Positions 5,010 to 36,291 of a DNA stretch of 36,301 nucleotides are shown here, piece by piece. Numbering within the stretch: position 1 is the stretch's first letter; each line of letters starts with the position of its first letter. A program made the translations under genes and the position numbers. Source of the DNA: Hydrogenispora sp. (lineage in GTDB: Bacteria; Bacillota; UBA4882; UBA10575); the NCBI GenBank assembly GCA_012837705.1, contig DUQQ01000037.1, forward strand, positions 1-36,301, in the 5' to 3' direction. Below the pieces are notes generated by a model. It did not search any database, was not told the DNA's origin, and saw only the letters and a list, made by a program, of their open reading frames with translations.

Positions 5010-6506
5010 ATGAATAGGTTAATTATCAATGCGGATCGCAAAAAAGGCAGGATTAACCGGAATATTTACGGGCATTTCGCTGAACATCTGGGGAGATGTA
5101 TTTACGAGGGTCTTTGGGTTGGTGAGGACTCCCCGATCCCCAATACGCGGGGGATCAGAAATGATGTGGTGGAAGCTCTCCGGAAGATTAAAGTACCGGT
5201 TCTCCGGTGGCCGGGTGGTTGTTTTGCCGATCATTATCATTGGCAAGATGGAATCGGGCCCCGGGAGAAGCGAAAGAAGATTGTCAATAGCTACTGGGGT
5301 GGGGTTACGGAGAATAACCACTTCGGCACCCATGAGTTTATGGATCTTTGTGCCCAACTAAACGCTGAACCCTACATCTGCGGTAATGTAGGCAGTGGCA
5401 CTGTTTATGAGATGGAACAGTGGATCGAATACCTGACTTTTGACGGCGAATCCCCGATGGCCAGCTTAAGGAAGGAGAATGGCCGGGAAAAACCTTGGAA
5501 ATTAAAGTATTTTGGGATTGGCAATGAAAGCTGGGGTTGTGGCGGGAATATGCGTGCCGAATATTATGCTGATGTCTACCGGAGATACCAGACCTATGTC
5601 AAATCATATGGGGATAATGAGATCTTTAAGATTGCTTCCGGCTCCCACGATGATGATTTTCACTGGACGGAGGTCTTGATGGAGCGGGCTGGCCAGTTTA
5701 TGGATGGTTTGAGCCTACATTATTATACGGTCTCGGGTGAGTGCTGGGAAAAGAAAGGATCGGCCACCGAGTTTGGGCTCGAGGAATACTTCCGTTGTCT
5801 CCAAAAAGCTCTGCTCCTGGATGATTTAATAACGAAACACAGTGCCATTATGGATAAATACGATCCGGAGAAGAGGGTGGCGCTGATTGTGGATGAATGG
5901 GGTGCTTGGCACCGGGTTGAACCTGGGACCCATCCGCGGTTTTTATATCAACAGAATTCCCTGCGTGATGCACTGATTGCCGGGATCAGTCTCAATATTT
6001 TCAATCGCCATTGTGACCGGGTGCGGATGGCCAATCTAGCCCAGATTGTCAATGTGTTGCAGGCTTTGATTCTGACCAGAGGCGAGGAAATGATTTTAAC
6101 GCCCACCTATCATGTTTTCGATCTGTATCAGGTGCACCAGGATGCGGATTTACTCGATTTTCAACTGGACTGTGGCGATTATGAACTGAATGGGGAAAAG
6201 ATCCCGGCGCTCAACGCTTCAGTCTCCAGGGACGAAACAGGGCGGGTGAATGTTACGCTTTGTAATTTACATGCGACGGAAAGGGTTGACTTGGTAGGCT
6301 GCTTTAACAGTGCGGAACTGAAGATCGAAAGGGTCGAGGGAACGGTCATAACCGCCGACCAAGTTAACGCCCATAATACTTTTGAAGAAACGAACAAGGT
6401 TAAACCAGAAGTCTTTAAGGATGTGCAGTTAAAGGAAGCGGGTTTTGCCGCCACCTTGCCCGCGGCTTCCGTTCTGCGTTTAAGTTTAATCTGCGCCCAA
6501 CAATGA
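5010..6506 (+). CDS. alpha-L-arabinofuranosidase, GH51 (second paralogue)
   Basis: A GH51 arabinofuranosidase of 498 aa, clearly related to but distinct from its upstream neighbour. The start [19 protein letters not shown] is the classic GH51 N-terminus. The acid/base lies in [12 protein letters not shown] (Glu173) and the nucleophile in VDEWGAWH (Glu296). The C-terminal beta-sandwich covers roughly residues 385-498. There is no signal peptide, so it acts on imported oligosaccharides. ATG 5010 follows ATAGGGGAGACAG. The GCGGN acid/base loop belongs to a different GH51 subgroup from GNEMDGP in the first paralogue. Subgroups differ in preference for arabinan versus (di)substituted arabinoxylan, but which applies here cannot be told from sequence alone. 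Confidence 0.94.
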
Positions 6507-6606
6507 GGGAGAAGAGAGCCGATGCTTGGCCCGGACAAGGCCGGTACTTTTTAGCAATTTAAGTCGGACGCGTATGGTCCCATTACGATCAAAGGGGGGA
6601 GCAATT

Positions 6607-8553
6607 ATGCCTTACGAGTATCATGTGGCGAAGAATGGTTCGGATTTGGGAAAGGGAACGAAAGAAGATCCTTTTCTGACGATCAATAGGGCGGCTTCCC
6701 TTGCCCAGCCCGGAGACACGGTGATTGTCCATGAGGGGGTGTACCGAGAATGGGTGAAACCCCAGAACAGTGGCTTAAGTAATACCAGGAGGATTACCTA
6801 TCAGGCCGCGGAAGGGGAGAAGGTGATCATTAAAGGGTCTGAGCAGATCCGGGGTTGGGAACAGTTTGAAGGCTCCATCTGGAGAGTCGTACTGCCGAAT
6901 GGTTTTTTCGGGGATTTCAACCCCTACCGTGAAGAGATCTTTGGGGACTGGTTTGCGACGACCAATACCGGGCGCCCCAAACATCTGGGGGATGTTTATT
7001 TGAACGGGATCTCCTTTTATGAGGCGGGGAGTTTAGAGGAGCTCCACAAACCGAAGATTAGGGAGAAAGTGCGTGATGATTGGACCGGCAAGGTGGTTCC
7101 CGTCCATCATCCGGAACAGACAAAATATCTCTGGTATGCCGAGGTTGATGCGGAAACGACCACCATCTATGCCAATTTTCATGCCTATAATCCCAATACG
7201 GAGCTTGTCGAGATCAATGTGAGGAAATGCTGTTTTTACCCCGACCGGATTGGGATTAACTATATTACCGTAAAAGGTTTTGAGCTGGCGCAGGCCGCAA
7301 CGCCCTGGACTCCCCCGACCGCCGATCAGCCGGGATTACTGGGTCCCAACTGGAGTAAAGGCTGGATCATCGAGGACAACATTATCCATGACTCCAAGTG
7401 CAGTGGGATCAGTATTGGGAAAGAAAGATCCACCGGCGATAATTATCGTACAAAACGTAAAGATAAACCGGGTTATAACTATCAAATTGAATCAGTCTTC
7501 AGCGCTACCCACGCGGGTTGGAGCAGAGAGCTGGTTGGCTCCCATATTATCCGTAATAACACCATCTATGATTGTGGGCAAAATGGGATCGTCGGTCATC
7601 TGGGTTGCGTCTTTAGTGAAATCTATAATAATCATATCTACAATATTGCCTTGAAAAGGGAATTCTACGGATATGAAATCGCCGGTATTAAGCTGCATGC
7701 CGCGTTGGATGTTCAGATCCATGATAATTGTATTCATGATTGTTCTTTGGGCATGTGGTTAGACTGGCAGGCACAGGGGACTAGGGTGAGCCGGAATCTT
7801 TTTTACCGTAATAATCGGGATCTCTTCGTTGAAGTAAGTCACGGGCCTTATCTTGTCGACCACAACATTCTTGCCTCCGAATACGCGCTGGATAATTACG
7901 CACAGGGTGGGGCTTATGTAAATAATCTGATCTGTGGAAAGATGGTTCACCAGAAAGTCCTTGACCGGTCAACCCCATATCATCTTCCCCACAGTACAAA
8001 AATTGCGGGGTTCTCGGTTATTCTGGGCGGGGATGACCGCTTCTACAATAACATTTTTGTCGGGAAAGAGGCGCTCGCAGGGGTCGGGACCGCACATTAT
8101 GATGGTTATACCACATCACTGGAGGAATATTTGGAGAAAGTCCATCAGACCCCCGGTGATGTCGAGATCTTTTATGATGTGGGCCAACCGGTCTATATCA
8201 ACAACAATGTATACTTGAATGGGGCGGTTCCTTTCGAGCGAGAAGTTAATAAACTGGTGGCTGCGGAGTTTGACCCCGAAATAAGGATTACGGAAGAGGA
8301 AGATGGGATCTACCTTAACTGTTGCCTTCCGGAAAAGTTTGCTAAAATCCATGGGGAGATCCAAACAACCAAATCCCTAAAGCGGGTAAGGGTGGCCAAT
8401 GCAGATTTTGAGAACCCAGATGGAAGTGAAGTAACACTTGATCGCGACTTTTTTGGGGAAAAAAGAGCAGAAAAGAACGGGGTGGGCCCGTTTGCGGAAC
8501 TGCGTTCGGGAAAAAACCGGATTAAAGTATGGAGTAACTTATGGAGTAACTGA
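6607..8553 (+). CDS. beta-xylosidase, GH120 (right-handed beta-helix)
   Basis: Protein of 648 aa that matches, as I recall the sequence, the GH120 beta-xylosidase XylC of Thermoanaerobacterium saccharolyticum over its whole length. It cleaves xylose from the non-reducing end of xylo-oligosaccharides with retention. The N-terminus (EYHVAKNGSDLGKGTKEDPF) opens a right-handed parallel beta-helix with repeated NNTIYDC/IHDC-type turns through about residue 470. The catalytic pair known in XylC (Asp382 and Glu405) corresponds to Asp386 in MWLDWQAQGTR and Glu409 in LFVEVSHGPY, with identical spacing. ATG 6607 follows AAAGGGGGGAGC. The longer frame from 6526 has no comparable site. No signal peptide is seen. 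It completes the pathway with the GH51 enzymes by trimming de-arabinosylated xylo-oligomers. The last residues (WSNLWSN) come from a 12-bp tandem duplication. Confidence 0.93.
   Translation: MPYEYHVAKNGSDLGKGTKEDPFLTINRAASLAQPGDTVIVHEGVYREWVKPQNSGLSNTRRITYQAAEGEKVIIKGSEQIRGWEQFEGSIWRVVLPNGFFGDFNPYREEIFGDWFATTNTGRPKHLGDVYLNGISFYEAGSLEELHKPKIREKVRDDWTGKVVPVHHPEQTKYLWYAEVDAETTTIYANFHAYNPNTELVEINVRKCCFYPDRIGINYITVKGFELAQAATPWTPPTADQPGLLGPNWSKGWIIEDNIIHDSKCSGISIGKERSTGDNYRTKRKDKPGYNYQIESVFSATHAGWSRELVGSHIIRNNTIYDCGQNGIVGHLGCVFSEIYNNHIYNIALKREFYGYEIAGIKLHAALDVQIHDNCIHDCSLGMWLDWQAQGTRVSRNLFYRNNRDLFVEVSHGPYLVDHNILASEYALDNYAQGGAYVNNLICGKMVHQKVLDRSTPYHLPHSTKIAGFSVILGGDDRFYNNIFVGKEALAGVGTAHYDGYTTSLEEYLEKVHQTPGDVEIFYDVGQPVYINNNVYLNGAVPFEREVNKLVAAEFDPEIRITEEEDGIYLNCCLPEKFAKIHGEIQTTKSLKRVRVANADFENPDGSEVTLDRDFFGEKRAEKNGVGPFAELRSGKNRIKVWSNLWSN
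8528..8551 (+). repeat. 12-bp tandem duplication at the 3' end of the GH120 gene
   Basis: TATGGAGTAACT occurs twice in direct succession (8528-8539 and 8540-8551). It adds four codons (WSNL before WSN) and supplies the T of the TGA stop. The family member I compare with ends near IKVW, so the duplication extends the C-terminus without affecting the helix core. Confidence 0.85.
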
Positions 8554-8564
8554 GGAGGACGAGG

Positions 8565-9563
8565 ATGCCTACGATTAAAGATGTAGCCAAACATGCTGGA
8601 GTTTCCGTCGCAACGGTTTCAGCCGTGATCAACCGGGATTCGGGGGTCAAGGTCAGTAAGGAGCTGACCGAGAAAGTAGAAAAAGCGATCAAAGAGTTGA
8701 ACTACCGTCCTAACCGCATCGCGCGTGCTCTTTCCAGAAAACAGACCCAGACCATCGCTTATGTCGTACCCTCGGTGAGCAATGCCTTTTTTGCGCAAAT
8801 GGCCCAACTAATTGAGGACAAGGCCTTTGCCAAAAGGTATGGTGTTTATCTTTGCAATACCCATAGCAATAGTGACCGGGTCGAGCTGTATAAGGACATT
8901 TTAATCGAGAACAGAGTAGCCGGGGTGATTACGACTCTGACTTGGGATATTATCGAAAAAGGTTTTATTGAGGCGATCCAGGAAGAGAATATCCCCATTA
9001 TCGGACTGGCCGGTGCCCGGGTGGTTGAGGGGATTGATACGATTACCTTTAATGATGTCCGGGGAGCGGAAATCGCCACCAATTATCTCCTGGAAAAAGG
9101 CCATCAAAAAATCGGCTTTATTGGGATTAAGAATAGTAAAACGACAAAACAGCGCCTACAGGGTTACAAAAAAGCGCTCCATGGGGCGAAACTTGAGGTG
9201 GATGAGAGGTATATCGAAAGGGGAAAAAGCTTTAACCGGGAAGAGGGTTACACTTTAGCGCAGAAAATCTATGAAAAGTGTCCGGATCTTACCGCCCTCT
9301 TTGTCTACAATGATGTGATGGCGGCCGGAGTGCTTGATGGCCTTAATGACTTGGGATTAAGGGTACCCAGAGATGTCGCGGTCGTTGGGTATGATAACAG
9401 TGTCGCCAACTATACACGGCCTAAATTGACCACAATGGATCTTTTCAAAGAACAAATGGTTGACGAAGCGATGGACCTGTTATTTAGACGCATTGCCGGT
9501 GAGGAGTTTGCGCCCAGACATGAACAGATCTTACCGCAACTGGTAATTAGGGAATCTTCATAA
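8565..9563 (+). CDS. LacI-family transcriptional regulator
   Basis: Sugar-responsive DNA-binding regulator of 332 aa. The N-terminal helix-turn-helix (about residues 2-22) reads TIKDVAKHAGVSVATVSAV, and the linker YRPNRIARALSRK contains the minor-groove hinge helix. A periplasmic-binding-protein-like effector domain (about residues 62-330) includes the typical VVGYDNS segment and the end QLVIRESS. ATG 8565 follows GAGGAGGACGAGG, 11 bp after the GH120 gene, so it is co-transcribed with it. Its position suggests that it represses or tunes this xylan/arabinan locus and senses a pentose or small oligosaccharide (inference). I could not find a convincing palindromic operator in the intergenic gaps. 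A degraded relative lies at 3358-3417. Confidence 0.94.
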   Translation: MPTIKDVAKHAGVSVATVSAVINRDSGVKVSKELTEKVEKAIKELNYRPNRIARALSRKQTQTIAYVVPSVSNAFFAQMAQLIEDKAFAKRYGVYLCNTHSNSDRVELYKDILIENRVAGVITTLTWDIIEKGFIEAIQEENIPIIGLAGARVVEGIDTITFNDVRGAEIATNYLLEKGHQKIGFIGIKNSKTTKQRLQGYKKALHGAKLEVDERYIERGKSFNREEGYTLAQKIYEKCPDLTALFVYNDVMAAGVLDGLNDLGLRVPRDVAVVGYDNSVANYTRPKLTTMDLFKEQMVDEAMDLLFRRIAGEEFAPRHEQILPQLVIRESS

Positions 9564-9625: not shown

Positions 9626-9653
9626 TTGACTTAACATTTTTTTGTGCTATGAT
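9626..9653 (+). promoter_or_regulatory. sigma-A type promoter of the SulP-Mrp operon
   Basis: TTGACT (9626-9631), a 16-base spacer and TATGAT (9648-9653) place the transcription start near 9660. That is about 27 bases before the c-di-AMP aptamer. It is the only good promoter seen between lacI and the SulP gene. Confidence 0.75.
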
Positions 9654-9686
9654 TAAATAGTAAGATACTTTAAAAAAATAGTTTAT

Positions 9687-9804
9687 ACTCCGAATTCCTT
9701 GGAGAAGCGGGGGACCCGTCATTAGGGGTGAATCCTGGTAAGGAAGCAAGTTTCCAGGTAGGGCAACTTGGGAGCCCGAACCCGTCAGCTAACCCCGTAG
9801 GAGT
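9687..9804 (+). promoter_or_regulatory. cyclic di-AMP riboswitch (ydaO/yuaA motif)
   Basis: The segment carries the conserved pieces of the ydaO-yuaA aptamer in order: GGGGGACCCGTC, GGGGTGAATCC, a central hairpin (AAGCAAGTTTCC region), GGGAGCCCGAACCCGTCAGC and TAACCCCGTAGG. Its ends close as a P1 stem, ACTCC (9687-9691) with GGAGT (9800-9804). This family binds c-di-AMP and usually turns genes off when the messenger is abundant. It is followed at once by a terminator and then the SulP transporter and antiporter genes, fitting its known role in osmotic and ion homeostasis. Confidence 0.93.
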
Positions 9805-9809
9805 GGTCC

Positions 9810-9851
9810 AAGCGTAGTGTCTTAGTCGTCAAGGCTGGCCTGCGCTTTTTT
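9810..9851 (+). terminator. intrinsic terminator of the c-di-AMP riboswitch
   Basis: AAGCGTAG (9810-9817) pairs with CTGCGCTT (9840-9847), and an inner GTCTT/AAGGC stem is also possible. The hairpin is followed by a T run to 9851. It begins five bases after the aptamer P1 stem, the arrangement expected of the expression platform. The rest of the leader (9852-9946) contains only the SulP ribosome site. Confidence 0.8.
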
Positions 9852-9946
9852 GCGTGCTTTTTTAAGAGAGAAAGACACCTTGACGAAGGGAAATTGCGGA
9901 GGCAATGGACTTAGATGGTGCCACTATTACTTGACGAGGTGATATT

Positions 9947-11461
9947 TTGCAGCAGATGTGGCAGCGGATTCGGGGTGACGTGATCGGTGGTGCGACCGCC
10001 GCTGTGGTTGCTCTTCCCTTGAGCCTGGCCTTTGGGATTGCCAGTGGTGCCGGGGCGGTGGCTGGTCTGTACGGCGCGATCTTCGGTGGTCTGGTGGCAG
10101 CGGTGTTTGGTGGTTGTGGTGTGCAAATCACCGGGCCAACCGGCGCGATGATCGGGGTTTTGGTGGGCGTTGTTAGCCAGCATGGGGTTGGCGGGATGTT
10201 TCTGGCGGGGGTTTTGGCCGGTTTGATGCAGGTGGCCTTTGGTTTGCTGCGGTTGGGTGGGTTTGTCAAATATCTGCCCCAACCGGTGATTGCCGGTTTT
10301 ACGAATGGCGTGGCGATCCTCTTTTTCATGACCGCAATCGACGATGCCTTAGCGACCCTTTCGATAACACTCCTGACGGCGGCGGTGATCATTCTCGCCT
10401 TACGTTTCTTTAAGCAAGTACCGGAATCCCTCTTTGGTCTGGTGGCGGGCTTGGTCGCCAATGAACTGTTCATTCATAGCCCCCATGTGGTGGGTGAGCT
10501 CCCCTTTCACTTGCCCCGCTTGGCGCTGGAAATCATGCCTTTTAGCCAGCTCAGTGCTTTGCTGATGCCCGCGTTCACCATTTGTATGTTGGGTAGTATC
10601 TCCGCGTTGTTATCGGCGGAGGTGACCGATGGAATGCTTGGGGTCCAGCACGACAGTAACCGGGAGTTGATCGGCCAGGGGCTGGGGAATCTGGTGGCGT
10701 CTTTAATCGGTGGTCTGCCCGTATCGGGGGCGGTGGCCCGTTCTGGCGTTAATGTCCATAGTGGGGGGCGGACACGGCTCTCCAGTATCCTGCATGCCAT
10801 CTTTTTACTACTGATGGTTTTGGTTTTTGCCCCTGTAGTCAAGCGGATTCCTTTAGCCTCATTGGCGGCGATTCTGATGATCGCCTCGGTGCGTACCGCC
10901 GCTTGGAAAAGTATGAAGCTGATGCCCCGGGCCCGTTGGCAATATGGCGCCATTATGACGGTAACGACCATCCTGACGGTGGTGAAGGATCTAACGATTG
11001 CGGTGGCGGTCGGGGTGGTTTTAGCAGGGCTGGGCGTCCTGGTTGAGCTGGCCTTTTCGCCTAAGGGAAAGGTGGTTGGTCCGTCTAAGGTGAACGCGGC
11101 GGATTATTCGGTCCCTGCAGATCTTCAAGTGCTTGCCTTTACCGGACCACTGTTCTTTGTCGGGGTTGAGCAGATGCGGCGGCGGATCCGGGCGTTGGCC
11201 CAAAAGCCTATTTTAGTCTTGGATTTTTCGGCAGTAACGAAGGTGGATGAGACAGGTGCCCTTGCCCTGCAGGATTTTGTCCACCGTTTGCAGCGAGAAG
11301 GCAAAAGCGTCTATCTCGGTGGACTGCAACGGGAACCTTTGCGGATGTTGATCCGGATGGGGGTTGTTGATAGTCTGGGTCGGCGGCGCGTCTGTAAACA
11401 CCTGAATAGTGCAATGCGCCGGGCGACGCAGGATTTGGCTCCGGATAGACGCGCGGAATGA
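9947..11461 (+). CDS. SulP-family anion transporter with STAS domain
   Basis: Membrane transporter of 504 aa in the SulP/SLC26 family, whose bacterial members move sulfate, bicarbonate or dicarboxylates, often coupled to Na+ or H+. The transmembrane domain (about residues 8-370) opens with DVIGGATAAVVALPLSLAFGIASGAG and contains the ITGPTGAMIGVL and GFTNGVAILFF signatures. The cytoplasmic STAS domain spans about residues 385-495 (FSAVTKVDETGALAL). The start is TTG 9947 behind GAGGTGAT. The frame gives a typical N-terminus and no ATG further upstream is usable. It is the first gene after the c-di-AMP riboswitch, and the Mrp-type antiporter genes follow in the same direction. That context resembles cyanobacterial BicA-type Na+/bicarbonate uptake paired with a sodium exporter, so bicarbonate is as likely as sulfate (inference). 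Confidence 0.93.
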   Translation: MQQMWQRIRGDVIGGATAAVVALPLSLAFGIASGAGAVAGLYGAIFGGLVAAVFGGCGVQITGPTGAMIGVLVGVVSQHGVGGMFLAGVLAGLMQVAFGLLRLGGFVKYLPQPVIAGFTNGVAILFFMTAIDDALATLSITLLTAAVIILALRFFKQVPESLFGLVAGLVANELFIHSPHVVGELPFHLPRLALEIMPFSQLSALLMPAFTICMLGSISALLSAEVTDGMLGVQHDSNRELIGQGLGNLVASLIGGLPVSGAVARSGVNVHSGGRTRLSSILHAIFLLLMVLVFAPVVKRIPLASLAAILMIASVRTAAWKSMKLMPRARWQYGAIMTVTTILTVVKDLTIAVAVGVVLAGLGVLVELAFSPKGKVVGPSKVNAADYSVPADLQVLAFTGPLFFVGVEQMRRRIRALAQKPILVLDFSAVTKVDETGALALQDFVHRLQREGKSVYLGGLQREPLRMLIRMGVVDSLGRRRVCKHLNSAMRRATQDLAPDRRAE

Positions 11462-11528
11462 GATTAATAAAAAAAGAGTCGATGCTTATTCTGGGATTTG
11501 GGACGGTTTGCGGAAAAGGGGGTTTAGC

Positions 11529-12131
11529 GTGCGTAAACAAGCGGTACTGCTTTTTGCGATCTTGTTGGCCTTTTGGACGGTGTTGGTTGGTGCGGTGAAT
11601 TGGCCGCTCACGTTGGTGGGGACCATGGTGGCTTTGCTCACCGTTTGGTTTTGGCAGGATCTGGGCCCAAGGCTGCCCAGATTGTTACCGTTTCGGGGCT
11701 TGTTGCGTTTGGGTTACGCCCTCGTCTTGATGGTGGGCTGGGTGATTCAAGCCAACTTTACAGTCGCGAAGACATTGTTGTTTTCCCGGCCAGCGGCGAA
11801 ACCGATCTTTTTGTTAATGGAACCGAATCTCCGTACCAACTGGGGACGGGTGCTTTTTGCCACCTGTATTACGATCACGCCAGGGACAGTGACGGTGGAT
11901 GTGGATCCGGAGAGTGGCCGGTTTATTGTGCATGCGCTGAACCATGAAACCGGAATCGACCTTCTGTACTGGCGGCTGGTGGATGAGATTATTTATATGG
12001 AAAACGCTTTAGCGGCGCGGAAGGCGCTTGATGCGGGGGAGGAGGAGAAACATGGGATGGCTACTGGTGGGTCTGATCGTCTTGGTGTTTCTAGTCCTGT
12101 TGCGGGCCATCATCGGTCCCACGGTTCTTGA
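11529..12131 (+). CDS. mnhE: Mrp-type Na+/H+ antiporter subunit E (MnhE/MbhA)
   Basis: Membrane subunit of 200 aa of a multisubunit cation/proton antiporter. Two to three hydrophobic segments fill the first 80 residues, followed by the family signature ATCITITPGTVTVDV and the conserved soluble tail (FIVHALNHETG). GTG 11529 is preceded by AAAAGGGGG. An in-frame start at 11409 would lie inside the SulP gene and is rejected. The usual C-terminus would be near the ENALAARKAL segment, but here the frame continues about 35 residues further and overlaps the first 80 bases of the next gene. It opens a gene order E-F-G-D-E-B-C-D identical to the antiporter half of membrane-bound hydrogenases. Confidence 0.92.
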   Translation: MRKQAVLLFAILLAFWTVLVGAVNWPLTLVGTMVALLTVWFWQDLGPRLPRLLPFRGLLRLGYALVLMVGWVIQANFTVAKTLLFSRPAAKPIFLLMEPNLRTNWGRVLFATCITITPGTVTVDVDPESGRFIVHALNHETGIDLLYWRLVDEIIYMENALAARKALDAGEEEKHGMATGGSDRLGVSSPVAGHHRSHGS

Positions 12132-12363
12132 TCGGCTCATTTCAATAAATGCGATCACCAGTAAGGTCAGTATGATTATTTTATTGATCGCTTTTGTCCG
12201 GGAAGAATACGGTTTTATCGATATCGCCTTCGTCTTTATGTTGTGTGGCTTTGTGAGCGGTCTTTGGATCCTGAAAGCACTTACCCCCGGTGATTGGCAA
12301 CTCCGGCTGCCAGGTGTCAAAGGTTTTGAAGGGGATGAGGAGGGAGAGGTGGCTGATGGTTAG
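12052..12363 (+). CDS. mnhF: Mrp-type antiporter subunit F (MnhF/MbhB)
   Basis: Small subunit of 103 aa with three predicted membrane helices. The conserved block is RAIIGPTVLDRLISINAITSK, typical of MrpF/PhaF, followed by a helix with FIDIAFVFMLCGFVS. ATG 12052 follows a very strong GGGGGAGGAGGAG. Earlier in-frame starts (12028, 12031) would add a basic, non-family extension that includes the ribosome site. It overlaps the end of mnhE by 80 bases and the start of mnhG by 8, so translation of the three is probably coupled. The last 25 residues are an acidic tail not usual in the family. Confidence 0.9.
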   Translation: MGWLLVGLIVLVFLVLLRAIIGPTVLDRLISINAITSKVSMIILLIAFVREEYGFIDIAFVFMLCGFVSGLWILKALTPGDWQLRLPGVKGFEGDEEGEVADG

Positions 12364-12667
12364 AATGCTTGCGAACTTGTGTTTTCTCGGTTCGTTTTTG
12401 GCCTTTGGGTTAGGAACCTTAGGTCTGTTTCGGTTTCCCGATTCATATACCCGCATCCATGCGGTGGGGATGGGGGATACGCTTGGGGTCGGTTTACTCG
12501 GACTGGGGCTCTTTTTACTCAGTCCCAACTGGTTGCTCCGCCTGAAGCTGGGGGCGATTCTCCTCCTGTTTTGGCTGATAAACCCGACCATGTCGCATTT
12601 GGTGGCGAAAGCCGGTCTGATCCACGGGGTTAAGCCGGCGGCTGACACCGGCGTGAGGAAGGGGTGA
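12356..12667 (+). CDS. mnhG: Mrp-type antiporter subunit G (MnhG/MbhC)
   Basis: Subunit of 103 aa with three helices. The MrpG signature is plain: GTLGLFRFPDSYTRIHAVGMGDTLGVG (residues about 20-46), then a helix with LLLFWLINPTMSHLVAKAG. ATG 12356 overlaps mnhF by 8 bases and follows GGGAGAGG. The longer frame from 12290 lies within mnhF and is not supported. MrpG contributes to the small-subunit module that holds the antiporter subunits together, and its order after F is the standard one. Confidence 0.92.
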   Translation: MVRMLANLCFLGSFLAFGLGTLGLFRFPDSYTRIHAVGMGDTLGVGLLGLGLFLLSPNWLLRLKLGAILLLFWLINPTMSHLVAKAGLIHGVKPAADTGVRKG

Positions 12668-12671
12668 GCCG

Positions 12672-12923
12672 ATGCCATATACCGCACTTGACTATTGGAA
12701 TATGGTTTTGATGTTGATTCTGGTGGTGACCGCTTTAGCTATGTATTTCATCAAGGATCTGCTCCATGCCGTGATTGTCTTTGGGGCCTATAGTTTGATG
12801 ATGGCCTTGATTTGGCTGCAGATGAACTCGCCGGACCTGGCAATCACGGAAGCGGCGGCCGGGATCGGGATGACGGTCTTGATGATGGCGGTTATCTTCC
12901 GCACCAGTCGGAAGGGGGAGTAA
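12672..12923 (+). CDS. MbhD-like subunit (DUF4040, MrpA C-terminal part I)
   Basis: An 83-aa membrane protein with three helices. The sequence FGAYSLMMALIWLQMNSPDLAITEAAAGIGMTVLM is the DUF4040/MbhD signature (with the acidic DLAITEA stretch), which in canonical Mrp complexes is part of the C-terminal region of MrpA. Here it is a free-standing subunit, as in archaeal membrane-bound hydrogenase and group-4 complexes. ATG 12672 lies four bases after mnhG and the gene ends three bases before the next start, so it is firmly in the operon. The conserved acidic residues are thought to line the ion path between subunits (family knowledge). Confidence 0.88.
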   Translation: MPYTALDYWNMVLMLILVVTALAMYFIKDLLHAVIVFGAYSLMMALIWLQMNSPDLAITEAAAGIGMTVLMMAVIFRTSRKGE

Positions 12924-12925
12924 CA

Positions 12926-13225
12926 GTGCGTGTCTTTAAGAGCCTTCTTCTTCTATTGTTGGTCCTGCTGGTCGCCTATGCGGTAATTATGACCGTGGCG
13001 GAGCTGCCCCCCTATGGGCAGCCGGACAATCCGGTCCACAATCAAGTAGCCAAACGCTACGTTGACGCAGCGTTAGCAGAGACCGGCACCTTAAATATGG
13101 TGACGTCGATCGTCCTTGATTACCGGGCTTACGATACCATGTTCGAGACCATTGTGTTGTTTACCGCAACCCTCGCGGTGGTCATTACCTTAAAAACAGG
13201 AAAAGGGGAGGGTCGCAGGAAATGA
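12926..13225 (+). CDS. MbhE-like subunit (MrpA C-terminal part II)
   Basis: A 99-aa protein with an N-terminal membrane helix (residues 4-25), an extracellular loop containing ELPPYGQPDNPVHNQVAKRYV and a second helix near FETIVLFTATLAVVI. The TSIVLDYRAYDTMFETIVLF block is the recognisable MbhE signature, corresponding to the end of MrpA. GTG 12926 follows AAGGGGGAG. Longer in-frame starts lie inside the previous gene. Its stop overlaps the ATG of mnhB by four bases (ATGA). With the MbhD-like gene it supplies what MrpA carries as a C-terminal fusion in Bacillus. Confidence 0.87.
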   Translation: MRVFKSLLLLLLVLLVAYAVIMTVAELPPYGQPDNPVHNQVAKRYVDAALAETGTLNMVTSIVLDYRAYDTMFETIVLFTATLAVVITLKTGKGEGRRK

Positions 13226-13647
13226 GAGATTTTATCTTAAAACGGGCGGCGTCGCTGATTTTACCTTTTATCTTTGTCTACGGAATTTATGTAATTCTCC
13301 ACGGTGCCGTCTCACCGGGCGGCTCCTTTGCCGGCGGGATTATTGTCGGACTGAGTTTTATCGCCTTTTCGACGATTTACGGGATCGAACAAGGCCGGGC
13401 CAAATTACCCGAGAAAGTGCTGGTTTGGACCGAGAGTTACGGGACACTGTGGTATGGGTTGATGGGACTGGTCGGTCTGGTGCGGGGGGTCCCGTTTTTA
13501 GCGAATAAATTGGCCGGTGTGGACCTGGGAACACCCGGAACCCTTTCTTCGGGGGGACTGATCCCCCTCATTGGTTTAGGGGTTGGGATCCGCGTCGCCA
13601 GTACCATTGTGACCCTATTCTTTACCATAATGGAGGAGGAGCGATGA
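13222..13647 (+). CDS. mnhB: Mrp-type antiporter subunit B (MnhB/MbhF)
   Basis: A 141-aa subunit with four helices. The motif FIFVYGIYVILHGAVSPGGSFAGGIIVG is diagnostic of MrpB (HG...SPGGGFQGG in most members), followed by a second conserved pair of helices and a C-terminal LIGLGVGIRVASTIVTLFF. ATG 13222 overlaps the previous stop (ATGA), and the gene's own TGA overlaps the ATG of mnhC by four bases, so this stretch is translationally coupled. No departure from family length is seen. Confidence 0.93.
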   Translation: MRDFILKRAASLILPFIFVYGIYVILHGAVSPGGSFAGGIIVGLSFIAFSTIYGIEQGRAKLPEKVLVWTESYGTLWYGLMGLVGLVRGVPFLANKLAGVDLGTPGTLSSGGLIPLIGLGVGIRVASTIVTLFFTIMEEER

Positions 13648-14045
13648 GCGGACTATTGACAAAAGTACTTATAAATTACCCCTATTTGGTAGCGGTGCTC
13701 CTCTTCACCATTGGGACGTTTACGGTTCTTACCCATCCTAACCTGTTCAAAAAACTGTTGGGGATTAATATCATGGAGAGCGCGATCTTTCTGATGTTTG
13801 TCGCTAGCGGCAATATTCGGGGGGGTGTGGCGCCGATCCGCGGTACGACTAACGCGGAGGCGGTGTACATTAATCCGCTGCCTTCCGCTTTAATGTTGAC
13901 TGGGATCGTGGTTAGTGTCAGTGTGACGGCTTTTGCCCTGGCGCTGATTATGCGTTTGTATAAGGCTTATGGGACGACTGATCTGCGGCGGATCGCTGCA
14001 CGGAGAAAAGAGGTGATCAGCGATGACCACCTTGATCAGGGCTAA
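13644..14045 (+). CDS. mnhC: Mrp-type antiporter subunit C (MnhC/MbhG, NuoK-like)
   Basis: A 133-aa subunit homologous to complex I NuoK, with three helices. The conserved segment LFKKLLGINIMESAIFLMFVASG holds the membrane glutamate (in MES) that belongs to the proton path. A second signature NPLPSALMLTGIVVSVSVTAFALALIMR is also complete. ATG 13644 sits after GGAGGAG within the end of mnhB, and the 3' end overlaps mnhD by 23 bases. The order B-C-D is the universal core of Mrp antiporters. Confidence 0.94.
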   Translation: MSGLLTKVLINYPYLVAVLLFTIGTFTVLTHPNLFKKLLGINIMESAIFLMFVASGNIRGGVAPIRGTTNAEAVYINPLPSALMLTGIVVSVSVTAFALALIMRLYKAYGTTDLRRIAARRKEVISDDHLDQG

Positions 14046-15516
14046 CTTACCGGTGTTGGTGGTGATTGCGCCCCTCTTTGTCGCTTTTATCCTTCCCCCG
14101 TTGGCCCGCCGGATCCGCCTCGTGGAAGCCCTGGCGCTCTTGGGGGCGGTTTTGGGGTTAGGGGGAGCCGGGTATCTGGCTTCAATTGTCCTCACGCAAC
14201 AAGAAAATCCCTTCATTTATCAACTTGGGGGCTGGCCCGCACCGTGGGGGATTGAACTGGTGGCGGGTAGTCTGGGCGTCTTTTTCTTGCTGGTGGTGGG
14301 TGTTAGTGTGCCGGTTCTCCTATTTGCCCAGGGTAATCTTGCCGCCGAGGTAGGCGGCGCGGAGCGGGTGACCCGCTTTTATGTGCTCTATCTACTGTTG
14401 GTCGGGGCGATGGCCGGAATGGCCGTTACCAACGACATGTTCAATGTCTATGTTTTGGTGGAGGTGGCCACCCTGAGCTGTTGTGGCTTGGTGAGTGCAC
14501 GGCGGTACCCACGGGCGGCGGAAGCCGCTTTCACCTATTTGATCCTGGCGACGTTGGGCTCCGCCCTTGTGCTCGGGGGGATTGGTTTAATCTATTTGAT
14601 CACGGGCCATTTGAACATGGGATTTGCCGCCCAGGAGTTAAGCCGGGTCTGGTTGGCACGGCCCCATGTCGTCTTGATGGCGGTCAGTTTGATCGTGGTC
14701 GGTTTTGGGGTGAAGGCCGCCCTTTTTCCGTTGCATGTTTGGTTGCCTGACGCCCATTCAACGGCACCATCGCCCGCCAGTGCTATTCTGTCGGGGCTTG
14801 CTGTCAAAGGCTATCTGATCTGCCTTGTGAAGTTTTTGTACGGCGTCTTTGGCCCTACGTTACTGCAGGAGTTTGCGGTCCACCGGATTCTGACGCTCCT
14901 TGGTGGGGTGGGGATCATCACCGGTTCAATCTTGGCCCTTACCCAGGAGGAGCTTAAACGGAGACTGGCTTACTCGACCGTGGCCCAAGTGGGTTATCTG
15001 ATCCTTGGTTTTGGGCTTCTGAACGTGACCGGACTAGCGGGAGCCTTGTTTTATCTGGCCAGCCATGCTGTGATCAAAGCAACCTTGTTTTTAGCGGCGG
15101 GGGCGATGCTGGCGGCGACCGGAAAGCGGAATGTACGTGATTTGGCGGGGGTGGGTCGGAAGATGCCTATTACCATGGCCGCCTTTACCATTGGTAGTCT
15201 CGGCCTGATCGGTCTGCCGCTGTTTTCCGGTTTTATCGGCAAGTGGTATCTGCTTCTAGGTAGCTGGGAAGCAGGATTGATTCTCCCGGCGGTGGCGATT
15301 TTGGCCGGGAGTGTGCTTTGTGCGGCTTACTTGCTGCCGGTGATCCGGGCCGCTTACTTTGCGCCCGCACCGGAGGAAGACTGGCCAGACCCCGGTCGCC
15401 CGCAGAAATTGGCTCTGCTATTGCTGGCGGCGGCGGTCGTAATTTTAGGAGTTAGGCCCGGGCCTTTCCTGGAGTTGGCCCAGAAGGCGGCCGCGGAGTT
15501 GTTGGCCTTCTATTAG
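14023..15516 (+). CDS. mnhD: Mrp-type antiporter subunit D (MnhD/MbhH)
   Basis: Large antiporter-like subunit of 497 aa, homologous to NuoL/M/N of complex I, with about 14 helices. Key proton-path residues are present: Glu147 in the helix-5 motif VYVLVEVATLS and Lys231 in GVKAALFPLHVWLPDAHSTAPSPASAILSG, the strongest signature of the family. A further helix has SHAVIKATLFLAAGA. ATG 14023 follows AGAGGTGATC and lies within the end of mnhC. It is the first of three consecutive subunits of this superfamily and the one that best fits the canonical MrpD position. Confidence 0.92.
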   Translation: MTTLIRANLPVLVVIAPLFVAFILPPLARRIRLVEALALLGAVLGLGGAGYLASIVLTQQENPFIYQLGGWPAPWGIELVAGSLGVFFLLVVGVSVPVLLFAQGNLAAEVGGAERVTRFYVLYLLLVGAMAGMAVTNDMFNVYVLVEVATLSCCGLVSARRYPRAAEAAFTYLILATLGSALVLGGIGLIYLITGHLNMGFAAQELSRVWLARPHVVLMAVSLIVVGFGVKAALFPLHVWLPDAHSTAPSPASAILSGLAVKGYLICLVKFLYGVFGPTLLQEFAVHRILTLLGGVGIITGSILALTQEELKRRLAYSTVAQVGYLILGFGLLNVTGLAGALFYLASHAVIKATLFLAAGAMLAATGKRNVRDLAGVGRKMPITMAAFTIGSLGLIGLPLFSGFIGKWYLLLGSWEAGLILPAVAILAGSVLCAAYLLPVIRAAYFAPAPEEDWPDPGRPQKLALLLLAAAVVILGVRPGPFLELAQKAAAELLAFY

Positions 15517-15530
15517 GGCCCGAGGAGGAG

Positions 15531-16985
15531 ATGGAACAGATGCTTGCACTGGTTTTTGCTTTATCAAGTGGTATTATTGGCGGTCTGCTGGTAGCGGCGC
15601 TCCCTGCGGCCAGGACCCGCCTGCGTAACATGGTTGTGCTCTTTTTTACAGGAAGCGGGATGATTTGCAGCTGGCTAGTGGCCCGCCAGGTGTGGGCGGG
15701 CGAACGGCTGCGTTTCGCGGGGCAGCTTGGTGGACTGACTTTTTGCCTGGACCCGGATCCGCTTGGGATCGTTTTTGGCTTGATCGCGGCCACGCTTTGG
15801 TTTTTTACCGTGGTCTATTCCTTGGGTTATATGGCGGGTAAAGCGCATCAGCGCACCTATTATGCCTTTTTACTCGTGGCCTTCAGTGCAACGCTAGGGG
15901 TGGCCTTCTCCGGTAATCTGGTGGCTTTGTATCTGTTTTACGAGTTACTCACCCTGACCACTTATCCCCTGGTGATCCAGGAGCGCAGTCCGGAAGCGAT
16001 GCAGGCAGGCACCAAGTATCTGCTGTATAATCTGGCGGGGGCTGCGGTCCTCCTCCTGGCGATCGTGCTCACGGCGGCGTGGGGCGGGCGGCTCGATTTT
16101 GTCGGCGGGCCCATCCTGGCTGCCGGGCTGAAAACCGGATTGAACTGGCTTTTGTTTTTATTTACGGTCGGCTTCGGGGTCAAGGCGGCACTCTTGCCGT
16201 TACACCGCTGGTTGCCGGCGGCGATGGTCGCGCCGACTCCGGTGAGTGCCTTGCTGCACGCGGTGGCCGTCGTCTATGCCGGGGTCTATGGCCTTTTGCG
16301 GGTGGTGTATTCGGTCTTCGGAACCACGTTGTTGGGTGAGTTGGGTTTCGCTGCGCTAATACCCTGGGTGGCGGCGGGTACGGTTTTGGTGGGAATTATC
16401 GTCGCCACACAGCAGGATATCTTGAAACGCCGACTGGCTTACCAGACCATTAGCCACCTATCTTATATACTCTTGGGGGCCTTTACCCTGCACCCGTGGG
16501 GTTTAGCCGGGGCAGTGCTGCAGATGATCGGGTACGCGGTACTGAAGACAGCCTTCTTCTTCTGTGCCGGGATCATTGCGGAGCAGACCGGGGTGACCCG
16601 GGTTAGCCAGATGGGCGGGGTTGGTCGGTCCCTCCCCAAGACGATGGTCGCCTTTGCTGTCGTGACCCTAGGGATGATTGGTATGCTACCGCTGGGGACT
16701 TTTTGGGGTAAATTCTATCTGATGAAGGGTAGCGTGGCCGGGGGGAAATGGCCACTGGCTTTGGTTTTGATCGGGAGCGGGATCATTAACGCTGTTTGTT
16801 TCATTCCGGTAGTGGTCAGGGCTTTTCGGGACGAAAATAAACGGTTGTCTATAACGGAACGGGGGGTTCGGGTTACGCTGATGCTGGTGCCAACCATGCT
16901 TTTGGTGGTGGTTGGCCTGGGGATGGGTCTTTTCCCAGGCATGGTCTGGCCGGCGGTACAGGCGGTGGTAGATTGGTTCTTTTAA
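15531..16985 (+). CDS. proton-conducting antiporter-like subunit (MrpD/NuoL superfamily), second copy
   Basis: A 484-aa membrane protein of the proton_antipo_M family. The helix-5 glutamate is Glu138 (LYLFYELLTLTTYPLV) and the helix-7 lysine is Lys218 in GVKAALLPLHRWLPAAMVAPTPVSALLHAV. A helix with AVLKTAFFFCAGI follows. It is clearly divergent from mnhD, so this is an old paralogue. The ribosome site CGAGGAGGAG touches ATG 15531, and ATG 15540 (nine bases further) may be the true start. It follows mnhD by 14 bases. Canonical Mrp clusters contain only MrpA and MrpD as large subunits. This gene is extra relative to the E-F-G-D-E-B-C-D unit and resembles those found in MBH-like and bacterial Mrp-linked respiratory clusters. 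Confidence 0.88.
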   Translation: MEQMLALVFALSSGIIGGLLVAALPAARTRLRNMVVLFFTGSGMICSWLVARQVWAGERLRFAGQLGGLTFCLDPDPLGIVFGLIAATLWFFTVVYSLGYMAGKAHQRTYYAFLLVAFSATLGVAFSGNLVALYLFYELLTLTTYPLVIQERSPEAMQAGTKYLLYNLAGAAVLLLAIVLTAAWGGRLDFVGGPILAAGLKTGLNWLLFLFTVGFGVKAALLPLHRWLPAAMVAPTPVSALLHAVAVVYAGVYGLLRVVYSVFGTTLLGELGFAALIPWVAAGTVLVGIIVATQQDILKRRLAYQTISHLSYILLGAFTLHPWGLAGAVLQMIGYAVLKTAFFFCAGIIAEQTGVTRVSQMGGVGRSLPKTMVAFAVVTLGMIGMLPLGTFWGKFYLMKGSVAGGKWPLALVLIGSGIINAVCFIPVVVRAFRDENKRLSITERGVRVTLMLVPTMLLVVVGLGMGLFPGMVWPAVQAVVDWFF

Positions 16986-16996
16986 AAAGTAAAGCC

Positions 16997-17028
16997 CCGG
17001 GCATGGGACAGGGTTTCATTGTGCCCGG
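16997..17028 (+). other. hairpin in the 184-bp gap between antiporter genes
   Basis: CCGGGCA (16997-17003) and TGCCCGG (17022-17028) form a perfect 7-bp stem with an 18-base loop, 11 bases after the preceding stop codon. No T run follows, so it is not a classic terminator. A processing or mRNA-stability element is possible. The remainder of the gap (17029-17156) is AT-richer and shows no convincing promoter. The next gene has a strong ribosome site at 17157-17162. Confidence 0.4.
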
Positions 17029-17169
17029 TAGGTTGGTTTGAAATAGTTACGTGATTATTAATCATACTTTCTGCTAAGGTTTCCTTGTAAGCCAAGCGGG
17101 GAAGGATGTCATTTATTTACCGAGATTAGGATTATAACATTCCAAGTTCCCTCGAAAGGAGGTCAAAAA

Positions 17170-19068
17170 ATGATGCTGGCAATTTTGCCGATGGTGCCTC
17201 TGATTGGGGCCTGTTTTTTGTGCTCAAAACGTGGTCGAGCGATTAACGGCCCTTTGACTATCAGTACGCTTCTGCTTATTTTGGGCGGGTTTGGCCTTGT
17301 TCGTGTTTTCGCGGGGCAGCCTATTACCTTTCGCCTTCCATTGCCCGGTCCTTACGGGCCAACCTTTTACGCCGATGCGCTCTCTGTCCTCTTTGTGCTG
17401 CTGGCTGTCTTTCTCTGGTTGGTGGTTGCGCTCTATGCTCCGGAATACATGAAACGGGAGGGGGGAGCCGGGCGCTTTGCCCTCTGGACTTTATTGACCT
17501 TATCGGCTGTTTTGGGTGTCTTTTTGGCCGGTGATCTGCTAACCCTCCTCCTTTGCTTTGAGTTGATGACGATCGCCTCCTTTTTCTGGGTGATTCAACG
17601 GGGAGATCGGGAGGCGATCGGTGCCGGTTATTACTATTTATTCTTCAGTATTGTGGGTGGACTATTTCTGGCTTTGGGCATTGTTCTGCTGAGTGTGGCA
17701 ACCGGTGGTTTGCCGACGTTCGGTAACAGCCCGGTTACGCCTTTGTACCCGACTATGTTTGCGTGGAGCGTGGCCTGTTTGTTGATTGGATTCGGGATTA
17801 AGGCGGGGATGGTCCCCCTACATCTTTGGCTACCCCGGGCGCATGCGGTGGCACCAACGCCCGCTAGTGCGCTTTTATCGGGACTCCTGATCAAGGTGGG
17901 GGCTTATGGCCTCATCCGGGTGGGCGCTTTCGCTGGTTGGGGGCAGACCCTGGGGGACGGGATTCGCTGGTTGGGGCCGGTCCTTGCTTTCCTTGGTGTC
18001 GGTACGATGCTGGTTGGTGTTGGGGCTGCTCTCCTCCAAAGCGAGGCAAAACGGCTTTTAGCTTACCATAGCGTAAGTCAGATGGGTTATATCCTCCTCG
18101 GACTAGGTATCGGCCTTGAACTGGGTACGGCCGGAGAGCTCGGCCTCCTTGGTGCGATCTATCATCTTTTTAATCATGCTCTCTTCAAAGCCGCCCTTTT
18201 CCTCGGAGTAGGCGTGATCTACTTGCATACGCGAGAAACTAACCTGTATAAGCTGGGCGGGTTGTGGCGCCGTTTTCCGGTGACGGCTTTCCTGATGTTA
18301 CTGGCGGTGTTGGGGATTACCGGTGCGCCGGGACTGAATGGTTATGCCAGTAAAACCTTGCTCCATCATGCCTTGAGTCAAGCGGTGGCAACCGGCATTC
18401 CTTGGGCGCGCTGGGTGGAACCCCTCTTTTTCCTGGTGGGGGTGGGGACAGCGGCGTCCTTTACGAAACTGTATTATCTGATCTTTCTCGGTAAACCTAC
18501 TCCGGTGAAGACTACTACGGTGCGGTCTACCCGACTCCATCTGGCGATGGTTTTGTTGTCAATCGTGATGGTCGGAAGCGGTCTTGCGCCCGCGTTGTTC
18601 CCAAAGGTGGCGGCCGTCCCGGCGGCCCATGGATTGGGGATGGCGCAGGCGGCTACCGTCCTGGGTGGTTTGGCGTTTTGGAATTTTGCGGATGTCTCCG
18701 GGATGTTCCTCACTTTAATCCTGGGGGCGATCGTTTGCGGGGCGGGTCTGAAGTGGGGCGTCTTTCATTGGCAGGCGCCACGCTGGTTGACGCTGGAGGG
18801 TTTGGTGAAACTGTTTATCAAGGGCGCTTCGGCAATAGGACGGAAAGGGGTGGCGTTTTACCGTTTGGTTGGGGCGGCGGTTGGTAGCTGGGGGCGTAGG
18901 CTTAGTTCCTGTCTGTATCGGGCTTTTACCCGCTTTGACCAGTCCAGAAACGCCACCATCGGCCGGATACGTTTGGTCGGGTTGAGTGCCGATGCGGCTA
19001 TCCTCATGTTGATGCTGACGTTGGTAATTGCCTGCTCCGTGCTGAACAGCTTGGTGCGGATGTTCTAG
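17170..19068 (+). CDS. proton-conducting antiporter-like subunit (MrpA/NuoL-type), third copy with C-terminal extension
   Basis: A 632-aa membrane protein of the NuoL/MrpA superfamily. The antiporter core (about residues 1-480) has Glu131 in LLCFELMTIASFFW and Lys211 in GIKAGMVPLHLWLPRAHAVAPTPASALLSG, plus NHALFKAALFLGVGVIYLHT. After it comes an extra region of about 130 residues: an amphipathic, Arg/Lys-rich stretch (about 540-600) and a last hydrophobic helix (AAILMLMLTLVIACSVL). That resembles the lateral helix and terminal helix of NuoL. ATG 17170 follows AAAGGAGGTC at ideal spacing. The 184-bp gap before it is the widest in the cluster. It may fill the role of MrpA's antiporter domain, with the separate MbhD/MbhE-like genes giving the rest (inference). 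Confidence 0.88.
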   Translation: MMLAILPMVPLIGACFLCSKRGRAINGPLTISTLLLILGGFGLVRVFAGQPITFRLPLPGPYGPTFYADALSVLFVLLAVFLWLVVALYAPEYMKREGGAGRFALWTLLTLSAVLGVFLAGDLLTLLLCFELMTIASFFWVIQRGDREAIGAGYYYLFFSIVGGLFLALGIVLLSVATGGLPTFGNSPVTPLYPTMFAWSVACLLIGFGIKAGMVPLHLWLPRAHAVAPTPASALLSGLLIKVGAYGLIRVGAFAGWGQTLGDGIRWLGPVLAFLGVGTMLVGVGAALLQSEAKRLLAYHSVSQMGYILLGLGIGLELGTAGELGLLGAIYHLFNHALFKAALFLGVGVIYLHTRETNLYKLGGLWRRFPVTAFLMLLAVLGITGAPGLNGYASKTLLHHALSQAVATGIPWARWVEPLFFLVGVGTAASFTKLYYLIFLGKPTPVKTTTVRSTRLHLAMVLLSIVMVGSGLAPALFPKVAAVPAAHGLGMAQAATVLGGLAFWNFADVSGMFLTLILGAIVCGAGLKWGVFHWQAPRWLTLEGLVKLFIKGASAIGRKGVAFYRLVGAAVGSWGRRLSSCLYRAFTRFDQSRNATIGRIRLVGLSADAAILMLMLTLVIACSVLNSLVRMF

Positions 19069-19115: not shown

Positions 19116-19149
19116 CAGAAAAACCTCTATCGTGTATAGAGGTTTTCTG
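19116..19149. terminator. bidirectional terminator between convergent genes
   Basis: CAGAAAACCTCTAT-type arm (19116-19130) pairs with ATAGAGGTTTTCTG (19136-19149), leaving a very short loop. T runs follow on the plus strand (TTTTG at 19150 onward) and A runs precede it, so it can serve the antiporter operon and the convergent DUF1848 gene alike. Confidence 0.8.
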
Positions 19150-19194: not shown

Positions 19195-20229
19195 TTAGCG
19201 CTCGTCTGATCGAAGAATGGTTTCGGCCTGTACGTCGCTGCGCTGGTAATTTCGGCGGACCAGGTGGGTAGAGTGGTTAGCATAGCAGTATTTGCAAAGG
19301 TGCATACAGGTGTTGTACTGGCCGATATCTTTACTGACAATACAGCCGCAAGCCTTGCGCTGCCCTTTATCCTTTAGGTTGCTTGACCGGTGTTCCTTTT
19401 TTATTATACCGGGAAACAAACCGGGCTGCGCTGTTTCATCCCCAAGGAACTCCATTAAGACCTGGTCATGGGGGAAGAGCTCCCTCAACAATTGATCATC
19501 GATGCATTTGTTGTGAATAATGCCGTAAGCCGAAAGATCAAGATCTTCAGCACAGGTGGCAATCTGGAGACCCCACTTTTGGTTTATTTCCTGCAGACCC
19601 GCGGCGATGGCCCGCATGCTTGCTTGGTCAAATTCGCGGTAGTCGGTAAACCCGCCGGCGATTAGATTATTCTGGACCCGGCGATACTGGGCGATATCGG
19701 CAAAACTGATGATCAACTTCTCGGTATACTCATGGAGCTGCTGACCGACGTTTTCGATCTTGGCCAGCAGCTTTTCAACGGTTAATTGCGGACTGAGGAT
19801 CAAAGGGTCGAAGCGCCAGACCACGCGTTTTTCCCCGATTAATTCGGCGAGCTCTTGAAAGGTTTTAATCCGTGCGGCCAGCCCGGGGAGGTATGGTTCC
19901 AAGCCTTCGGCTTCGTAGTCATTAACCGAAAAGGTAAAGTAGTAATTGAGCCCCATTTTGTCCAGTTGCGGCAGGTGTTTAAAAAAGGGGCGGGCATTCT
20001 TCGTCCAGAAGACAATCGCCCGCGTTTGCTTGAAGGAAACATACTGGGCTTGTTGGTTGAAGGGGTTAATCCACTTTACATAGCCCGCGGCCAACCGGTT
20101 CATAAACCAGTCGCCATAAAAGGCGGGCAAATCTGTCGCCCGGCTGGCCGAGATAATAACCGGCGCAATGGCCGTTTTTAAGCCGGCGGCTGTTTGGATT
20201 TCTACGCGGTCCCATCCCGGAAAGGCCAT
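19195..20229 (-). CDS. DUF1848 family protein with C-terminal CX3CX2C motif
   Basis: A 344-aa soluble protein of the DUF1848 family, whose function is not established to my knowledge. Recognisable family blocks are ISASRATDLPAFYGDWFMNRL near the N-terminus, AIVFWTKNARPF, VVWRFDPLIL, IISFADIAQYRRVQNN and ATCAEDLDL, consistent with a barrel-like fold. Near the C-terminus are CGC (residues 294-296) and CMHLCKYC (308-315). The latter has the CX3CX2C spacing of radical-SAM [4Fe-4S] clusters. I chose the ATG at 20229 because AGGAGAG lies about nine bases before it. The longer frame from 20265 includes that site. It is a single-gene unit, transcribed towards the antiporter cluster and divergent from the DUF2059 gene. 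A DNA-repair (photoproduct-lyase-like) role is a guess from resemblance of the cysteine-rich end. Confidence 0.85.
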   Translation of the reverse strand: MAFPGWDRVEIQTAAGLKTAIAPVIISASRATDLPAFYGDWFMNRLAAGYVKWINPFNQQAQYVSFKQTRAIVFWTKNARPFFKHLPQLDKMGLNYYFTFSVNDYEAEGLEPYLPGLAARIKTFQELAELIGEKRVVWRFDPLILSPQLTVEKLLAKIENVGQQLHEYTEKLIISFADIAQYRRVQNNLIAGGFTDYREFDQASMRAIAAGLQEINQKWGLQIATCAEDLDLSAYGIIHNKCIDDQLLRELFPHDQVLMEFLGDETAQPGLFPGIIKKEHRSSNLKDKGQRKACGCIVSKDIGQYNTCMHLCKYCYANHSTHLVRRNYQRSDVQAETILRSDER

Positions 20230-20347
20230 GGTGACGACTCTCCTCTCTTCACTCCGTGTTGGCATGCGGCATTAATTATAAATACTGGAGCGGAGCGTTA
20301 TCTCCTCCAATGATAAACGACAAAGTACGGAGGACGGGCATTTTGTT

Positions 20348-36115: not shown

Positions 36116-36141
36116 GAACCTAACAATTGCATAGTTTACCT

Positions 36142-36291
36142 CTTAAGGTGCCATCACGGCTTAATAGGGAAACAGGTGCAAATCCTGTACGGTCCCGCCA
36201 CTGTGAGAGGGGAGCTTTTTGCCAGTCGCCACTGGTTGAGCTGGGAAGGTGGCAAGAAGCGATGAACCCGAGTCAGGAGACCTGCCTTAAG
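36142..36291 (+). promoter_or_regulatory. cobalamin riboswitch
   Basis: Complete B12 aptamer: P1 arm CTTAAGG (36142-36148) with CCTTAAG (36285-36291), the core AGGGAAACAGGTGCAAATCC (about 36166-36184), then GTACGGTCCCGCCACTGTGA, and the 3' part GATGAACCCGAGTCAGGAGA followed by CCTGCC. These are the B12-box elements of the family. The controlled gene lies beyond the window. Such riboswitches sit before cobalamin synthesis or transport genes and before B12-independent isozymes, usually repressing them when B12 is abundant. Confidence 0.94.

Follow-up and report, generated by a model that had tools for sequence, protein, structure and literature searches.

A c-di-AMP riboswitch leader conserved upstream of genes for a SulP anion transporter and a stand-alone Mrp antiporter

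In a clade of uncultured anaerobes, genes for a SulP anion transporter and for an Mrp antiporter of the stand-alone group 3 kind are headed by a c-di-AMP riboswitch, which probably attenuates the transcription of the whole set as one operon. That operon would serve turgor control by handling ions and pH. The anatomy of the leader and operon is as listed below, and both are conserved among relatives. Known targets of c-di-AMP riboswitches are mainly genes for K+ uptake, osmolytes and the cell wall; a SulP anion transporter and an entire Mrp antiporter would now join them. None of the three components, riboswitch class, SulP or stand-alone Mrp, is new in itself; it is their linkage that appears to represent a new set of targets, with a leader design that may turn out to work as an ON switch. 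No report of a c-di-AMP riboswitch linked to either SulP or Mrp was found in the literature searched; the gene list of Nelson et al. 2013 lies outside that literature, and may hold an unremarked listing.

The leader and the genes behind it

The window, meaning the whole stretch of DNA analysed, is a 36-kb contig (36,301 nt) from a genome assembly of 2.41 Mb that is 97% complete. The following features were marked in it.

9626-9653, + strand: promoter, TTGACT-16 nt-TATGAT with TG before the -10 (10/12 matches; a motif-like prediction)
9678-9819, + strand: c-di-AMP (ydaO/yuaA) riboswitch aptamer, RF00379 (93.9 bits, E=4.3e-21)
9767-9771, + strand: pseudoknot loop strand CUUGG, covarying with the strand at 9808-9812
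9796-9801, + strand: aptamer closing strand CGUAGG, complementary to the right arm of the terminator at 9839-9844
9808-9812, + strand: pseudoknot 3' strand CCAAG, common to the base of the terminator stem
9810-9851, + strand: intrinsic terminator AAGCGUAG...CUGCGCUU with a U-run, conserved in the leaders
9947-11461, + strand: SulP/SLC26 anion transporter with STAS domain, 504 aa (PF00916 1.7e-59 plus STAS)
11529-12131, + strand: MnhE / MrpE (PF01899 1.1e-22)
12052-12363, + strand: MnhF / MrpF (PF04066 3.3e-8; start chosen by ribosome site)
12356-12667, + strand: MnhG / MrpG (PF03334 2.2e-20; start tentative)
12672-12923, + strand: MbhD-like (DUF4040) subunit (PF13244 5.5e-18)
12926-13225, + strand: MbhE-like subunit (PF20501 1e-8; GTG start tentative)
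13222-13647, + strand: MnhB / MbhF (PF04039 1.9e-22)
13644-14045, + strand: MnhC / MbhG (PF00420 4.9e-22)
14023-15516, + strand: large antiporter subunit D1, MnhD / MbhH type (PF00361 2.1e-58; nearest solved chain MbsH 6u8y_H)
15531-16985, + strand: large antiporter subunit D2 (PF00361 6e-52; nearest solved chain MbhH 6cfw_H)
17170-19068, + strand: large antiporter subunit D3, HyfB-like, with a long C-terminal extension (PF00361 2.7e-52)
19120-19146, + strand: likely end-of-operon terminator (hairpin prediction)
19195-20265, - strand: DUF1848 protein, the next gene after D3, convergent with the operon

An earlier note on this DNA had placed one promoter, a ydaO-type aptamer and a terminator before SulP and ten antiporter genes running in the same direction, and both its coordinates and its gene order proved right. 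The aptamer begins 24 nt past the promoter, and the same promoter motif aligns 5' of the aptamer in most relatives; promoter-like sites in the window are no more frequent than in shuffled sequence. The aptamer scores far above the RF00379 gathering cut-off of 38 bits and is the only copy in the genome, which also encodes a diadenylate cyclase domain; the RNA presumably binds c-di-AMP. It shares with its class the aptamer sequence and structure, a pseudoknot between loop and 3' tail, a target in osmotic or ion transport and an expression platform downstream, here the conserved terminator (stem 9810-9847, T-run 9846-9851, computed dG about -17 kcal/mol). The pseudoknot covaries class-wide, the pairs being CUUGG/CCAAG in the window and CUUUC/GAAAG, CUCUU/AAGAG or CUAUC/GAUAG elsewhere. 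SulP has a TTG start, with a ribosome site (GAGGTGA) at 9936-9942. Directly 5' of the riboswitch, at 5010-9563, are genes for an arabinofuranosidase, a GH120-like beta-helix protein and a LacI-type regulator; the LacI-type gene keeps its place beside the riboswitch only within the genus.

A search of related genomes for the riboswitch-SulP-Mrp arrangement, which the earlier note had proposed, found the order of promoter, aptamer, terminator, SulP and Mrp, as far as each contig reaches, in 19 distinct genomes or contigs (G000, G004, G005, G006, G011, G012, G017, L033, L034, L035, L036, L038, G172, G251, G269, G336, G381, G307 and G406) from at least six families (f1, f3, f21, f53, f66 and f141, as labelled in the search output); a chance arrangement is thus excluded. 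Scanning GTDB contigs with SulP provided eight relatives, and whole-genome searches provided the further ones. An aptamer above the cut-off was detected in six of the eight. The other two are L037, which was left out of the leader comparison because its contig starts 107 nt before SulP, and a second SulP copy in G006 (L032; L091, G006:C22, 6388-7887), 80% identical, which has no aptamer and lies away from the Mrp cluster. Promoter, aptamer and terminator can be aligned across the SulP/Mrp leader set.

Sign of the switch

Unlike that of most other RF00379 leaders examined, the terminator in the window overlaps the pseudoknot strand and matches the aptamer closing strand. Of the 19 SulP/Mrp leaders, 17 have a terminator stem that includes some of the pseudoknot strand; among the 21 other c-di-AMP leaders examined, only 2 do, and terminators mostly start 30-89 nt further downstream. 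When aptamer and pseudoknot were enforced in computed folds, the stability of the terminator was lowered in SulP/Mrp leaders and mostly raised in the others, with median changes of +3.2 and -1.2 kcal/mol respectively (Mann-Whitney p=1.3e-5, or p=3e-5 with genus means; both values overstate independence, as the leaders are phylogenetically related). Across 18 leaders, 105/108 positions of the terminator's right arm can pair with the aptamer strand CGUAGG, whereas 78/108 can pair with the local left arm; the six-nucleotide match to the aptamer strand is perfect in 15 of the leaders, compared with 7.5% of shuffled arms. The L033 terminator incorporates the aptamer strand directly; L034 and L035 have no such terminator, and there the aptamer strand covers the ribosome site of SulP by base pairing (p=0.001 and 0.013 respectively, versus shuffles). 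Sequestration of the ribosome site was rejected as a general mechanism, since only these last two leaders beat shuffles.

These pairings point to competition between aptamer and terminator for the same strands, which is the layout of an ON switch. With no ligand bound, the aptamer closing and pseudoknot strands would be free to join the terminator stem or, in two of the relatives, to block the ribosome site; on binding of c-di-AMP, the aptamer would hold those strands and the operon would be read through. That the leaders of this clade are genetically ON c-di-AMP riboswitches is a tentative proposal, to which we give slightly less than an even chance; for the operon in the window itself we lean slightly towards ON, at about evens. 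The lean is only slight because the window terminator survives aptamer folding (it still forms, at -7.9 kcal/mol, with the aptamer enforced, so that the computed effect is modest), because the pairing between aptamer strand and right arm could be that of an antiterminator, and because OFF is the sign of those class members that have been tested in the literature found.

The conventional alternative, to which we assign a probability not far below one half, is that c-di-AMP promotes termination, and that falling c-di-AMP under osmotic stress induces Na+ extrusion and anion transport. All c-di-AMP riboswitches with a tested sign in the literature found are OFF (PMC6488665, PMC9337991), amongst them the ablA leader of Dehalobacter (PMC9337991) and the kdpFABC leader of B. 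thuringiensis, even though the latter has a terminator reported to follow its aptamer immediately (PMC6488665); this example speaks against the use of terminator proximity alone as evidence for an ON switch, which was accordingly dropped. The compatibility of the window terminator with a folded aptamer is also consistent with an OFF switch, as is the predominance of osmolyte and K+ genes amongst the other sampled targets. In an OFF switch, the pairing of the aptamer strand with the right arm would act as the antiterminator; however, ligand-free folds up to the U-run show no such structure. The placement of the terminator unlike that of other c-di-AMP leaders, the recruitment of the aptamer strand into the terminator of L033 and its covering of the ribosome site in L034 and L035 likewise speak against an OFF switch.

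By analogy with known c-di-AMP targets, Mrp would exchange Na+ or K+ for H+ at the expense of the proton-motive force, and SulP would move the accompanying anion. Were the switch ON, high c-di-AMP would turn on the operon, and cations and anions would be shed at high turgor; were it OFF, the operon would be induced under salt stress. An ON switch would parallel, at the level of genes, the activation of the CpaA-type K+ antiporter by c-di-AMP. The operon offers a natural test of whether c-di-AMP can, via RNA, activate efflux or pH genes as well as repress uptake genes, and, as the conserved leaders differ in switching, sign and mechanism could be tested directly with short RNAs. It would fit the ion and turgor regulon suggested by the other c-di-AMP leaders sampled, which precede genes named, by reading of translations rather than by HMM, as encoding lysine 2,3-aminomutase, DapB, KimA-like permeases, a glycine-betaine-type ABC system and cell-wall hydrolases.

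Another leader (L108 in G035, aptamer 11048-11176, - strand) has the CCAAG pseudoknot seen in the window and an adjoining terminator, and lies before an apparent CPA2-type cation/proton antiporter, making this a second antiporter target of this style of riboswitch. An unusual target, an ABC transporter with fused membrane and ATPase domains, follows a c-di-AMP aptamer with an adjoining terminator in L045 (G012:C40, core near 7251).

The anion transporter and the extent of the transcription unit

The product of the first gene has the Sulfate_transp and STAS domains of the SulP / SLC26 family. In linking the riboswitch to an Mrp/Mbh-type module and a SulP transporter, the earlier note had proposed Na+-driven uptake of bicarbonate or sulfate; the linkage and the single-operon layout stood, but the mode of uptake did not. 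This model, in which a Na+ gradient made by Mrp powers Na+-coupled uptake by SulP in the manner of cyanobacterial BicA, draws on BicA (6ki1) being the nearest solved structure, with a shared SulP fold and STAS domain, and on the pairing with a Na+/H+ antiporter proposed in cyanobacteria, the Mrp complexes of which are thought to support Na+/bicarbonate symport (PMC4390856, PMC13249358). However, of the residues that bind Na+ in BicA (Asp258, Thr262, Gly300 and Thr302; PMC13249358), those at 258, 262 and 302 are replaced by Ser, Ser (Ala in one sequence) and Val in an alignment of the window protein with 14 orthologues, and an Arg two residues past the Val is invariant in all 15. All of these sequences also lack the acidic residue that SLC26Dg has in TM8, and no Sat-type ATP-sulfurylase was found in the genome, the search having been for the Sat type, with the CysDN type outside it. 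Given the replaced Na+ ligands and the lack of a Sat enzyme, neither Na+-coupled bicarbonate uptake nor sulfate assimilation by this SulP is supported, and we consider the model unlikely. The window system further differs from BicA in that its host is an anaerobe and a c-di-AMP riboswitch is in control. Against the NCBIfam BicA equivalog the protein scores 263 bits, where the cut-off is 880; as in a DauA / Rv1739c-type SulP, the DauA score is better than that for BicA, yet the protein falls below the curated cut-off of every SulP equivalog, missing those of both DauA and BicA by far.

The interpretation of SulP and the ten antiporter genes, behind one promoter, aptamer and terminator, as a single operon is well supported by the conservation of this layout, and the two sets are presumably cotranscribed. 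That the riboswitch governs SulP alone, with the antiporter genes having their own promoter, seems very unlikely. An aptamer and SulP do occur with no Mrp at the locus in G010 and in G013, the latter with just the aptamer core at its contig end, and an aptamer directly precedes a SulP that is about 40% identical, with no Mrp nearby, in G218 (L126, 2060-2203, + strand) and G132 (L127, 13579-13724, - strand). On the other hand, the gap between SulP and mnhE, 67 nt in the window, is just 8 nt in two congeners, and a motif scan of the window revealed no promoter-like site on the + strand within it. Furthermore, in G044 (L089) and G361 (L133, the leader of which is partly a run of N) SulP has decayed to a fragment, whilst the leader and Mrp are retained, such that the leader still heads mnhE. 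In the L126 and L127 leaders, the pseudoknot strand is the A-tract of the terminator.

At the other end of the predicted operon, D3 is preceded by a gap of 185 nt in the window; relatives from beyond the genus have a gap of only some 21 nt there, hence D3 belongs to the antiporter set. A weak promoter-like site in this gap (17038-17065) was discounted, such sites being no commoner than in shuffled sequences and the gap being so short in relatives.

The stand-alone antiporter

The antiporter is an ordinary stand-alone group 3 Mrp, the common form in the phylum. MnhE, F, G, B, C and D are all encoded, and MrpA is split, with PF13244, PF20501 and PF00361 on separate genes. Pfam domains confirmed the earlier reading of the order E-F-G-D-E-B-C-D as that of the antiporter half of MBH, followed by two extra large subunits. 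The TM5 Glu and the TM7 and TM12 Lys residues are visible in the translations of all three large subunits, and the complex is predicted to catalyse Na+(K+)/H+ antiport.

As previously noted, no hydrogenase or dehydrogenase subunit adjoins the cluster in the window, and the [NiFe] large and small hydrogenase subunits of an MBH are missing from the cluster. PF00346 (complex I 49 kDa / group-4 hydrogenase large subunit) is absent from the whole 97% complete genome, and no PF00361 proteins were found in it beyond the three of the operon; on these grounds, the antiporter would work without a PF00346-type redox partner. A partner oxidoreductase from another locus of the genome, for which the MBH-like gene order might speak, was rejected as scarcely credible in view of these absences and of the full trio of large subunits here, as in stand-alone clusters.

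Nor is the missing oxidoreductase the anomaly it had been taken for, as the phylum usually has its Mrp in this form, stand-alone and with three large subunits. A search with MnhB covered 398 genomes of the phylum and exhibited a break in identity: matches of at least 61% all fall in this clade, where an aptamer is present in the leader wherever sequence is available, and those of 54% or less all fall outside it. Nearly all of 22 outside clusters have the order E-F-G-MbhD-MbhE-B-C plus two or three large subunits, and not one of the 22 has an adjoining SulP or a c-di-AMP aptamer in the stretch fetched (which for L093 and L141 included almost no upstream sequence). It is the riboswitch and SulP, on this comparison of gene content, that set the clade apart, and not the layout of its antiporter.

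A stand-alone group 3 Mrp has been described in Pyrococcus furiosus (mrpEFGBB'CD; PMC8415708), which the window cluster resembles in its E-F-G-B-B'-C-D order and its lack of a redox module. However, the P. furiosus complex has one large subunit, whilst the window has three, as do around 20 other clusters of the phylum, and MbhD and MbhE are fused in the former but encoded by separate genes in the latter. The subunits and their order are likewise those of the antiporter portions of the MBH and MBS complexes of Thermococcales, from which come the nearest solved chains, MbhH and MbsH, although the window lacks any hydrogenase or sulfane reductase module.

Further riboswitches are found elsewhere in the window. 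A T-box leader (24322-24562) lies 5' of a branched-chain amino-acid operon that encodes the acetolactate synthase small subunit, two adjacent LeuA-like proteins and IlvD, and a cobalamin riboswitch (36129-36301) occupies the very end of the contig, with its gene beyond the window.
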